From Arabidopsis thaliana (Eukaryota; Streptophyta; Magnoliopsida; Brassicales; Brassicaceae), in the NCBI RefSeq assembly GCF_000001735.4, contig NC_003070.9:29187971-29251970 (forward strand): 64,000 nucleotides of DNA. The letters run 5' to 3'. Numbering within the stretch: position 1 is the stretch's first letter; each line of letters opens with the position of its first letter. This document shows, one piece after another, positions 4,218-12,000 of this stretch. The notes under the pieces were generated by a model that did no database searches, had not been told where the DNA came from, and was given only the letters and a program-made list of their open reading frames with translations. Made by a program: the position numbers and the translations under genes.

Positions 4218-7200
4218 CTAATAGTATGAACTCATGTAGAGCCTTGCTCCTATATCGAGCGGACCATCATCTCCACCAACAGCATGAAGAACCACAGGAA
4301 TGGTCGAGAAAAGTTGGATGGTCAAAGGAAAAACCGCAGGGGCAACCTCATCTATTGACACGGCCTCTGGTGACTCAGTGTCATGGACAGACAATGCACT
4401 GCATTTTGCAACGCACACTTCACAAGGACTCACCAAATAGACAGCTTCCTTCATGGGCTTGAAAAAGCCTCTTCCACCTCTCTTGGAATAGAGTTTATCG
4501 ACGATTAACGTTGATGTTGCCTCTAGCCAGTCTGCACACAAGCCTTCGATTTGGTCGTAGTATATTCTCCGTTCAATCTGTGACAGCATCAATAACAACA
4601 AGTGTTTAGCAGACTGTAAACAGGAATTTAGATAAATTTAATTGTGGTAAATGAATCAGTAGAGACTTACGCCAAGCTTGCTAATGTAAACAGTCATAAA
4701 TCTTGATCCCAAGTTCATTACTCTAGCTTCACACGGAAAAATCTGCAGAGAAAGAAATAAATGAGTTTCCTTAACCAACATAAACACAAGAAGCATCAGA
4801 ATGATGCAAGTTATCAATTCACTTACCTCCTTTTGCTTCAGCACAAACCAAGTGTAAAGCTTATCACATGCATCTCTGACTTTTCGAGCAGCCAGCTTCC
4901 TCTCATTGCAATAAGCAGCGACATCAGAGAGTATTTCAGTGGAGGGAACACCATGTTTCAAAGCAGCAACCGATAATGCTTCCTTGCCCTCGATAGATTC
5001 AGCAGCGTCTTTATTGAAATGGATGCCGGTGAAACAGCTTCTCCCTTCATCAATTGCTGTTTGCTTCTGCTTTGAGTATAACTCCTCAGCCTCAAGAGCA
5101 GCAGCTAACGCACGGTGAACGACTATGTCTGGGTACCGTCGAAGAGGAGATGTGAAGTGAGTATAGAGAGGAACAGCTAGTGCATAGTGTCCCCACTCAG
5201 CAACACTGTCCTTCAAATTCCCAGTGCAGAAGTAAGATGCTAGTTGCATAGGTTTTATAGCATAATTGTTGAGAATATCCACAAAAACTGAGTCATCCTT
5301 GAGGTTTCCAGTGATTTTCTCCAATGAATCCTGAAGTTGGCCAGAAGAAGAAATGTCCAAATCCATACCATGCTTAGAACAAAACCCTTCAAATTCTTTG
5401 AGCTTGCGAGTATTTGGTTCTGGATGCCTCCGGAGCAATGAGCTAGCACGGTAAGCTTGAGAAATAACCTCAGCTGCTGTCATATTTGCTAAGAGCATAA
5501 ACTCCTCAACAAGAAAATTCGAACCCTTTCTAGAACACGTCACAAAATCATATGGAACTCCATGTTCATCAAATAGAAAAACAGGCTTCGAATTCTCCAG
5601 CTGCAAAGCCCCATTTCTAAATCTTTTTTGCCTTAAAGTGGTGGAAATCTCACTAAGCTGTTTGACAGATCGAGTTACATCACACCATTTGAAAGATCCA
5701 TGCAACGCAGGCCAGCCATTTTCTGCAACATCACTTTTGCCATCTATAATGTCTTGAGCATGGTCATATGAAAGCTTGCAGCACGACCGTATGATAGTAC
5801 GGCCAATCCAGCGATCTATCACATCCCCTTCTCTATTTAAATCCCACAAGATAGAAAAAGCAAGTCTATCAGCTCCTGGACTAAGTGAACCTACGTTCTC
5901 TGACAGTAATGGAGGCAACATTGATATTTTTCTCTGCATCAAGTAAACACTGGTTGACCTAAACCGAGCTTCTGTGTCGAGAGCAGTCTCTGGTAAAACA
6001 AAGTAGGAGACATCAGCAATGTGAACACCGACTCTAAAAAAACCGCCGGGTAAACTTTGCACTGATAGAGCATCATCGAGATCTGTAGCTGTCGAAGGGT
6101 CGATGGTTAATACACACAGGTCTCTCAGATCTTTTCTACGTTGAACCTCTTCTTCTGGTACTTCCCAAGGCACACGTGGAAGACTAGTAAGCGATCCTGG
6201 AGAAAAGTCAGAATCGCAAACCGAGTTCTGATATAATATCGCATTGATCTGAGGCTCCAATTCACTGCCTCGGCCAAATAGATGTGTAATTTGGGCTACA
6301 GGAAATGGACTCCCTTCGCCCCAGTCTACAATTTGGGCAGCTACCAGCTCTGCCTCGAGATTTGGATCCAAATTCTCAAGTCTTGCTCTAATGCTTCCAG
6401 GTAAGACATGGAAGGGGACAATCAATTTAGGAAACCTAGGGTCTGCAGGCATCAGCTGGACATATTCATCATCCGAAAGAGACAGAGGAGACTTGCACCT
6501 TTTTGGATCACTTTCCTTGTAATGAATCCATCCCTTGACATCAAGCAAGCCAACGATAGAATCCCTTACAAGTGACTTTTCAACAACAGCAACTACTTGT
6601 CCAGTTGGTCGTTTGTGGGGGAAGGAACTAAGGATGCCGCATAGCTTATCAACCGCACTGCAATTTCCTTTCTGCTCACAAAAAGAACCCAAACATGAAT
6701 CCAGTGATGGTGGAGAACTGGGAGTAACACCGTTCTTAGCTCCTTTTCCTATAACTGATGATTTGTTTTTCGAGAACCCATCTTCAAAACCTTCTACCAC
6801 ATCAATACCATTTTTTTGACGAGCTTTTTTGTCATCTTTCTCTGGGGGACTGTTCGTTCCTTCAGGCTTAGCAGCGCTTTCAGTAACAAATCCTTTCATC
6901 TTGGGCCACAGTGAGAGCGGATCCAATTTAATAACAACAGTATCACCTTCCACCTACGTAAAGAAACACAAGTCTGAACTTAGAAAACCAAACAATGAAT
7001 TAAGATAAAACACAAGCCAGGAAGCTTATTGTACAAAGATAAACCAAACTTACTGCTCTACTTTGGCAAACATTTCCATTGATTAGAATGTCTGTAGGGA
7101 CTCCATCGATCTTACAGTAAGCCTTCAAAGGAAAAATAAAACGGATTAAAAGTGAACAGAAGAAACCTCATTGGAAAAACAGATGTTGCCACTAACCTCA

Positions 7201-7993
7201 TTGCGATTATGAGCATTCACCCGAAATAGCGCTTTAAAAGCTTCACCTTTCTGATACAATGCATAAAAGTAAAGACAGCTATGAGGTCCAAAACATATAA
7301 CTTAAAAGGAAGAAAAAAAGAAAGATAAAGATAACATCTCAAACAAACCTCTAAAGCTTCGGTCACAGCATCAAGAGACCAGTGTGAAGAGAAAATCTTT
7401 CGTTGTGAGGAACCTTCAATTTGCTGAAACAATTCACCATTCATTCCAGGAGACTGCTCACAAGCCCTAGGATCAGGGCAAGACTTCGATAACAATTGCT
7501 TACTAACTTCAGGTGAAGAAAGTAACGGACTTGCAGATCTCCTGGGATAACCACTTTCTGCTCGCATAGGCGGCATAGAATTGAAAGCAACATTAGACGC
7601 TCTCATAGCTTCAAGTTCGTCGGTATTAGGTCTCTGCTGCTTCGATGAAGAAGTAGAATCTTTAGCTTTACTCCTACTACTATCTCTACCATCTAACGAC
7701 TCCTCCACATGTGCATCTTCTATCGGTACTGTTCCAACACATTAAAGTTGCAAACTTGTAAGGTAAAAGGCAACACACATTTAACTAACCTAGTCGGCAA
7801 AAGTCATACTTTAAACCCTAACTATCAACTTCAAGGTTTAAAAAACGAAATCAATTCGCAAAAGAAGAAAAGAAAAGATTTTTGAACCTGAGCTTTGCTT
7901 AGATCGACGATTTTGTTTCTGAGGCCTGTTCCTCTTCTTCTTGTGACCGTTTTCGATTCTTTCAACTGATTGTTCCGACGACGCACTCTTCAT
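4218..7993 (-). CDS. SOV: SOV, DIS3L2-type RNase II/R family 3'-5' exoribonuclease, seven exons
   Basis: Exons: 7993-7888, 7728-7349, 7250-7197, 7122-7054, 6953-4827, 4742-4671 and 4577-4218. All borders are GT..AG and the frame stays open for 1055 residues. The enzyme degrades RNA 3' to 5' in cytoplasmic mRNA decay. The N-terminus is a basic, Lys/Arg-rich tail with no PIN domain, which separates it from DIS3/RRP44. Cold-shock domains follow at about 160-460, then an RNB catalytic domain. The metal-binding IDPSTATDLDD motif lies at about 487-497 (Asp 488, 494, 496, 497). SPLRRYPDIVVHR marks the end of RNB, and an S1-like domain follows in the last ~150 residues. Residue 705 (codon 5450-5448, CGT) is Arg within AYRASSLLRRHPEP; family members usually have Pro there. 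I recall Arg705 as the natural Col-0 sov allele, reported to be defective compared with the Ler form. Confidence 0.95.
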
Positions 7994-8737: not shown

Positions 8738-9055
8738 TTAGTTTTCTTCACACCATAGCTTGCAAAAAGCAGCTTTTATAAACCCAACATCATTTCCATC
8801 TACAGGAACGACATAGTTGGGCTTGAACGACATAGCAGGTCGGTTGCAATATTTGTGACATGCTTTCTCACACACGGTCAGATTATTAGCCTCGGGCATG
8901 CATTGTTCCGGAATACAAGTCTTGATGCAACTCTGTAGTTCTTCAGGACTAATTCCTAAGTTAACAAAGCCTTTGCTGTTGACACACCATGTCATGTTCA
9001 TTACCATAGCCACCATTAGCATTGCTATTATGATCACTCGTCCATTTGCTGCCAT
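8738..9055 (-). CDS. small secreted eight-cysteine peptide, thionin-like
   Basis: A single uninterrupted 105-codon ORF. Residues 1 to about 28 form a hydrophobic signal peptide (rich in Ile, Met, Val, Ala). The predicted mature part has eight cysteines spaced C-x3-C-x4-C-x9-C-x3-C-x3-C-x27-C-x3-C. The paired CxxxC spacings suggest two disulfide-linked helices, as in plant thionin-like or related cysteine-rich secreted families. A TATA-like TATTTAAA lies just upstream on the minus strand (9064-9071), which makes a very short leader. No intron is needed. The family name is a guess from the cysteine pattern; the target or role is unknown. It stands alone between two long spacers. Confidence 0.7.
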   Translation of the reverse strand: MAANGRVIIIAMLMVAMVMNMTWCVNSKGFVNLGISPEELQSCIKTCIPEQCMPEANNLTVCEKACHKYCNRPAMSFKPNYVVPVDGNDVGFIKAAFCKLWCEEN

Positions 9056-12000
9056 TTTCTCGTCTTTAAATATTCCACCTAAATGAATGTTCGATTCTTG
9101 TAATTCGTATTGTTCAAATTTTCAAGAGATTATATGTACAATTGTGGTATCTATTTTTAAGTTTTTGTTTTAACTACTTTTTGTTGTGAAATGTATATTT
9201 TTGTGCATGTGACAAATAATGAGTACGATTCTCCTTTTTGTTTTATCATTCCAGGATAAAATTGTCAATAACTTGTAGTTGTGATTTGTAAACAGAAAAT
9301 AGTTGCTGGTTTGCCTTCGATTTGTAATGTGTTGACGTGTTGTAATAATTAAGTTCCTAAATTAAGCTATGCAATTTTCTTTTCGAAGTTTGAGTTTGTC
9401 TTGAATCGGATTGTACTGTAATATTACGTGCAAGATTGTCGAATAACGTTGTATGTTCCACTGCCTTTTTTTTTTTGTTAACGTCCAAAAAACTGTGGAT
9501 ATTTGAATAATTAACGAGAAGATGACCAAAGGAAGCCATGGGTGTTGTTGTATTATGTTTTTAGGATTTGGGTTGTTACCTACTACAACAAACATATGTT
9601 TTTAGGATAGGCTGAACGAAGGCCCACTAACAATATTTGGAATTTCTAAACATATGCGATCATTGGTTTAAATATATTGGGCCAAGCCCAGATAAAAGAA
9701 TTTAAAACAAGTTGAGAAATAATAAACATACTCTCTTTGCTTCTTCTCTGGCCGTCTCAGAAATTATTAATGTGATTTCACTAAATCAAGATTCTCTGAT
9801 AATCTCTTGCTTACATTTTGAGGTCGCTCAGTGCCCTTAATGTGATTGCTTCTTCTCTGGCCGTCTCACTACCAGGTATTGTTTGCTTTTTTTTTTGGTG
9901 AATATAATCATGCATCAGTCATTTTTTTTTGGTGAAACATTAGTCATTTTTTTGTAAGACTAGACATATATTTTTTAGTTGGTAAGACATATATGTACAT
10001 GTAACTTAAATTAAGCCAATAATTAATGAACACTTACATATCTTTAATTTTGTTAAAACAATGTTTCGAGCTAAAGTATTCAAATCAGTTATATTAATAA
10101 TTTCATTGTTCGAAATTTTACTATATACTATACAAATTTTAATGATAATAATAATGTGAACGACATTAGGTCAGGATAGAGATTGGCAACTACAAGCAGA
10201 CGCAGCATGTGGATGATGAACAATATCGACATCGTAATGTCATTTCGAGACAAATGTGTATCGAAAAAGACTTACAATGGACAAGGGACATATATTTTTG
10301 TATACATATATTCAAGCATAGGCTTACAAATCTTCATGCACATTCATGAGAAACCCTCCAACGCATAAAATTACAAACCTGTCATGCATGTACCCATCAT
10401 TTGTTATTTTTCGATTTTTTAATAACCTACGTTTAAAATAAATTTCTAGTGTTCTAGTTCGAACAAATCAATTTTTACTACTCTAGAAACAGGATCTGTG
10501 GTAAATTTACATGTTTCTTTTGTTTTTCTTGGATGTTACGAATTTTGTTGTTGAAACATATGAATATTTAATCAACAAAAATTAAAAAAAAAAAAAATCA
10601 AAAATCAAAGCCGTCTGAAATATGTCATGTGAAGTGTAGCTTTTTCTCTGAAATTAAGGAGATGGAAGATTAAAAAGGTGGAAGATACCGAAGATGATTT
10701 TTCTTTCTTTTTTTCACCAAGACCCCACGCACGTGTGAGTCTTATCCACACGCTTTTTTGTCCATTTTATTTCTCACATTCTTTGCTTACTTGCAGAAAA
10801 TTGAGTTCACAAAAGGTTCTTCATTTTCACTTTCGCAATAGAACACGAAGGCTGAGCACAACGTGAGAACGTGTTCATCTTGATTTTTTGTGTCTTGTCG
10901 TTTTCTTGCAACTTTTTTATATACTGATCGAAGCCTCTTCCTCTCTTTTTTTGAACTTATTGTAAAATCTATTTTAGCATGATCTATGCTGATTTAAAGT
11001 TTGATCTTGTCGGATTTTTAATATCATGATTTGAATAAATAATACATGTTCGTACTAACTACTAAGTATACAACTCTTATATTAATCTTATTTAATTGTA
11101 TCCCAATATTGGTTTGGAATTTTATGTTCCAAAAAAAAGTCATAAACTATACGTGCTTAGTGCCTTTTTTTGTTAAGAACTAAGTACTTAATTAGGCTTA
11201 GCTATATGTATTTTTTATTTATTTATTTTTTTGTAAACTAGGCTTAGCTATATGTATGTCGATAGCAATTCACAAGCAAAATGTCAATAGGACCTTATCT
11301 ACATACAGTATATTCATATTTATAGAAATATATGCATGTAGGATACAGTATCCGCCAATAAAACAGTAGTCACGTATTTGTTTTTTTTATAATAATGATT
11401 AAATGTAAAGTAAATAGTATTTACATATTTATTTTTTCATAACGCTTTGAATCAAAGGAATATTAGACCATACGTTTAATTATTTTTTTCCAAAATTATC
11501 CCCAAATTCGTCCTTTTCCTACTTAACTTCTTCTTTTGTAATATCTCACAGAGCACAAGCAAATTAGGTTAAATATATATTCAAGGATAGATTATGATAA
11601 CGTTTTTGTATTAGTTCATTTTGGCCATATTGTTTTTGTATTATTTTGTCTATATCTTTAGTAGGTAAAGAAAATGGCAGAATAGTGATGACCCAACTTC
11701 CCATGAGATTGATTGGAGCATGGAAGTTAGAAAGCTAGTCAAAAAGCAGTTTACTAGATTGGCAAATCCATAAAAGCGCTTAAAAGGTTTGTTAGAATAT
11801 TAACTTTTGACACTCTGAATCATGAATTTCTATTTATATATCTATCACAACTTATGCCTATTGAATTATTTAGTGTCCCGTCGTCGGAATCAGTTTTTTT
11901 TGGTAATAAGTCTAGTTGTTCCGGCAATAAATGAAATATTTTTATGAGTTTAAATGCTTTTTTAAAAACTGATTTTCATTTTTTTTGGATTTTGACCCCC

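Follow-up and report, generated by a model that had tools for sequence, protein, structure and literature searches.

The window (the whole 64,000-nucleotide stretch of Arabidopsis thaliana DNA analysed here) contains on its minus strand the SOV gene, also named DIS3L2 or RRP44B, for which we take AT1G77680 to be the locus number. Its coding span, from 7993 to 4218, was rebuilt as a spliced model of seven coding exons: exon 1 (7888..7993), exon 2 (7349..7728), exon 3 (7197..7250), exon 4 (7054..7122), exon 5 (4827..6953), exon 6 (4671..4742) and exon 7 with the stop codon (4218..4577). Exon 5 supplies residues 204-912, including cold-shock domain 2 and the RNB catalytic domain. The coding sequence of 3168 nt specifies 1055 amino acids plus the stop, in agreement with the 1055-residue exonuclease proposed when the DNA was read without database searches (hereafter the sequence-only reading). 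All six introns have GT...AG borders and the frame is unbroken over the 1055 residues, which rules out a pseudogene. An additional copy of the gene was likewise ruled out, as a DNA search of the genome with the whole gene returned a single match, its own locus.

Two domains of the protein were recognized in Pfam, the RNB catalytic domain (PF00773, 330.5 bits, residues 476-824) and a Dis3-type cold-shock domain (PF17849, residues 367-446). A third match, to the DIS3L2 C-terminal domain (PF17877), scored 25.8 bits and so lies below the cut-off of 31.6, and these three matches, taken to an E value of 0.05, did not include the PIN domain that is a feature of DIS3. Among 28 PDB sequences matching SOV, the top five (8e27-8e2a and 4pmw; E values 3.1e-120 to 3.1e-119) are all DIS3-like exonuclease 2. 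Based on these sequence comparisons, the window protein is identified as SOV/RRP44B, a DIS3L2-type exonuclease. The genome holds six RNB-domain matches, and the five outside the window are pieces on two other contigs. We took the two pieces on contig C2 as RRP44A, a paralogous RNB exonuclease whose best solved match is the exosome subunit RRP44/DIS3 and which, unlike SOV, is essential for viability. The three pieces on contig C5 presumably belong to an organellar RNase R-like gene, in which we found no clear motif by which the counterpart of SOV codon 705 could be placed. The activity of SOV/DIS3L2 is described as cytoplasmic, exosome-independent and 3'-5' in passages of a review (PMC6305221).

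Farther along the window, a minus-strand open reading frame (8738-9055) encodes a 105-residue Cys-rich peptide with a signal-like start and the motif SCIKTCIPEQC..VCEKACHKYC. The product resembles small secreted Cys-rich plant peptides, and a Pfam search with it gave no family at E values up to 1. Upstream of this frame lies a repeat pair (9737-9868), a 23-base stretch present in two exact minus-strand copies (9868-9846 and 9759-9737) that are 109 bases apart.

Codon 705 of SOV (5448..5450, minus strand) is CGT, read from 5450 to 5448, and specifies Arg within AYRASSLLRRHPEP. Its middle base is the minus-strand G at 5449, and C at this position would give CCT (Pro). The spliced model thus confirms the coordinates, residue number, codon and peptide given in the sequence-only reading, along with its remark that one base separates Arg from Pro.

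The catalytic center of the enzyme is intact. Four Asp residues (D488, D494, D496 and D497 in SOV) are catalytic in this enzyme family; they lie within DPSTATDLDD (residues 488-497; 6072..6101, minus strand). All four are invariant in an 18-row alignment, in which they correspond to D285, D291, D293 and D294 of P0001, and loss of catalytic residues was therefore ruled out. Three further motifs, all on the minus strand, were placed by alignment: VEEFM (residues 685-689; 5496..5510), LLRRH (residues 709-713; 5424..5438) and SPLRR (residues 805-809; 5136..5150). R711 and H713 of LLRRH, together with P716, are invariant columns of the 18-row alignment, and Arg705 precedes R711 by six residues and H713 by eight.

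In the alignment with human DIS3, SOV E687 corresponds to E665, R711 to R689, residue 705 to S683, and R808 to R780, a residue that contacts the phosphate backbone of the RNA; for the human protein, chain positions were shifted by two to match the published numbers, a shift that puts E665, R780 and D488 of DIS3 on conserved residues. These three DIS3 residues are myeloma hotspots according to passages of a review, which also state that most such mutations do away with the exonuclease activity (PMC4598762). The segment around residue 705 thus matters. An AlphaFold2 prediction from exon 5 of the window and 17 bacterial rows gave a weak model (mean pLDDT 57), in which a predicted helix over SOV 680-704 (pLDDT averaging 85 and 74 in the blocks that make up most of it) stops just before residue 705, and in which pLDDT falls below 50 over residues 706-716 (P0001 503-513). 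In model and alignment combined, the site follows the predicted helix that bears the counterpart of E665 and sits ahead of the invariant Arg.

We then compared the residue at this site across homologues. In a small eukaryotic sample (n = 6, leaving the PDB matches DIS3L1, SSD1 and 7tuv out of the count), the position aligned to SOV 705 is Pro in four homologues and Ser in two, and Arg occurs in none. Pro is found in human and mouse DIS3L2, in S. cerevisiae Dis3 and in Arabidopsis RRP44A, whereas Ser is found in S. pombe Dis3L2 (4ro1) and human DIS3 (6d6q); the species behind the PDB chains are our assumption (8e27-8e2a and 4pmw human or mouse, 4ro1 S. pombe, 6d6q human). The closest comparison is with human and mouse DIS3L2, which share the VEEFM and LLRRHP motifs with SOV but have Pro where Col-0 SOV has Arg; in people, loss of DIS3L2 leads to Perlman syndrome, in contrast to the normal appearance of Arabidopsis accessions that lack functional SOV. 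S. pombe Dis3L2 and human DIS3 have the same catalytic domain as SOV, and their Ser shows that Pro is not strictly required at the site. The pattern P-x3-LLRRHP expected by the sequence-only reading thus stands insofar as Pro is the commonest residue among the eukaryotic enzymes, but it is not invariant, and Ser in two of the six weakens the idea of a near-universal Pro. The same reading had named Arg being common at the site in other species as evidence against it; Arg is absent from the six eukaryotic homologues, and occurs once in the bacterial loop described below.

Bacterial RNase R relatives show a different picture. In 18 of 18, the site falls in a loop of variable length ahead of a YRIH-like motif, where the residues are Pro (5), Asn (5), Lys (5), Ile (1), Arg (1) and Ala (1). 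This is a biased sample, since the relatives come from one scan and were picked by patterns including NFLVEEFM; their record titles read Bacteroidales, Bacteroidetes, Tannerella, Flavobacteriales or Candidatus Cacconaster. A scan of viral contigs for relatives gave two pattern matches, neither of them a relative. Lys or Arg in six of the 18 bacterial relatives means that the fold as such can accommodate a basic residue here, and the bacterial variety tells against a simple rule by which Pro would be needed at the site. From these alignments, any constraint on the site looks to be restricted to the eukaryotic branch.

The claim that Col-0 carries a defective sov allele while Ler carries a functional one is backed by the literature. 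Passages in several papers describe Col-0 as a natural sov mutant through a point mutation, and PMC10310928, PMC10540740 and PMC11915504 likewise treat Col-0 as a mutant for SOV. Fully functional SOV is described as absent from Col-0 by natural variation and present in Landsberg and C24 (PMC6711988), and the active form is placed in Ler in a passage of PMC8795450. In the relevant passages of the review cited above, suppression of vcs is accession-specific, and accessions without functional SOV look normal (PMC6305221). These published passages on the status of Col-0 SOV name no residue, and a literature search for a change at 705 gave only papers that are unrelated, judged by title and opening of the abstract. 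The Col-0 change is reportedly the one described by Zhang, Murphy and Sieburth in 2010, a replacement of Pro by Arg at 705, with Ler said to have Pro (CCT). Compared with that allele, the window has the same gene, genome and Arg705, and we saw no difference. The sighting is correct, and the allele was already known. What is added here is that the six eukaryotic relatives have Pro or Ser, not Pro alone, at the site. The site itself lies between an invariant Arg and the helix with the hotspot counterpart, and some published data misfit a null allele.

We scored four interpretations as mutually exclusive. We consider it probable (roughly 0.58) that the window is the Col-0 reference carrying the known natural SOV allele, Arg705, as a hypomorph. 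This reading is supported by the codon, by a frame and catalytic residues that are intact, by the occurrence of Arg in none of the six eukaryotic homologues, and by the position of the site. Against it stand the basic residues of bacterial relatives and the weakness of the structure model. In addition, several papers describe Col-0 without qualification as a sov mutant or as lacking functional SOV, and these same descriptions favor a second interpretation, in which Arg705 is the same known allele but abolishes activity, so that Col-0 is in effect a knockout. The insertion lines rrp44b-1 and rrp44b-2 (the latter being SALK_017934), in which SOV mRNA is undetectable, bear directly on this choice; SALK lines have the Col-0 background. 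As expected of a null in Col-0, the rrp44b plants are normal and indistinguishable from Col-0 in morphology, and most of the RNAs tested are the same in both: their rRNA intermediates are unchanged, MRP RNA, snoRNA31 and NCED3 are unchanged as well, and AT5G27720 shows slight increases only (PMC3820695). SOV also did not rescue yeast rrp44, in an experiment for which the section describing it leaves the allele unstated. On the other hand, AT5G11090 mRNA is up relative to wild type only in the rrp44b lines (PMC3820695), and in SALK_017934 reporter RNAs, whether infiltrated or transgenic, decay more slowly than in Col-0 (PMC10885604). Removing the mRNA of a dead SOV should alter nothing, yet these RNAs differ, which argues for residual SOV activity in Col-0. 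The two papers have the line SALK_017934 in common, so a second-site lesion in it could explain both results. The intact frame and catalytic residues also speak against a null. We therefore regard complete loss of activity as a serious but doubtful interpretation, and the balance favors the hypomorph over it by a little under two to one. Of the two expressions used in the sequence-only reading, "weakened" fits the RNA differences between insertion mutants and Col-0 better than the "loss-of-function" of its title.

The other two interpretations are much less probable. Arg705 could be a neutral marker, the Col-0 defect then being due to another difference between Col and Ler, either coding or regulatory. 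The tolerance of Ser in eukaryotes and of basic residues in bacterial RNase R is in keeping with this, and a causal role of residue 705 is putative; however, no other obvious lesion is present, since the reading frame is unbroken and neither the splice sites nor the catalytic residues are damaged, and Arg was found in none of the six eukaryotic relatives, which makes a neutral marker improbable. A sequencing or assembly error at 5449 is scarcely credible, because the Col-0 defect is known from genetics, as the published passages report it, independently of the window sequence.

Under the hypomorph, the preferred reading, a bulky charged Arg would replace the Pro that ends the helix (or the Ser of some relatives) at 705, and may thereby shift the turn by which LLRRH is positioned within the RNA channel. 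Turnover by SOV would be lowered rather than abolished, and the exosome, together with decapping and XRN4, would then take on a larger share of the deadenylated mRNAs. A more specific version, which we put forward tentatively and consider less likely than not, is that Arg705 makes a substrate-selective hypomorph, one that still degrades some mRNAs, such as AT5G11090 and LUC reporter RNAs, and fails on the set of RNAs whose decay lets Ler tolerate the loss of decapping.

Col-0 is the reference strain of most work on plant RNA decay, and its SOV allele is altered. The meaning of "wild type" and "sov" in decay data already published depends on whether this allele is weak or null. In PMC10885604, the published half-life data GSE86361 are presented as Col-0 versus sov, whereas in the review PMC6305221, which comes from a laboratory that produced data of this kind, the wild type is Col-0 into which a Ler SOV transgene was brought. 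These may be one data set, reportedly that of Sorenson et al. from 2018, under two descriptions (Col-0 versus sov, or Col-0 with Ler SOV versus sov), which bears on the meaning of sov. If the substrate-selective reading is true, Col-0 would be neither wild type nor null for SOV, and studies built on either view would need re-examination.
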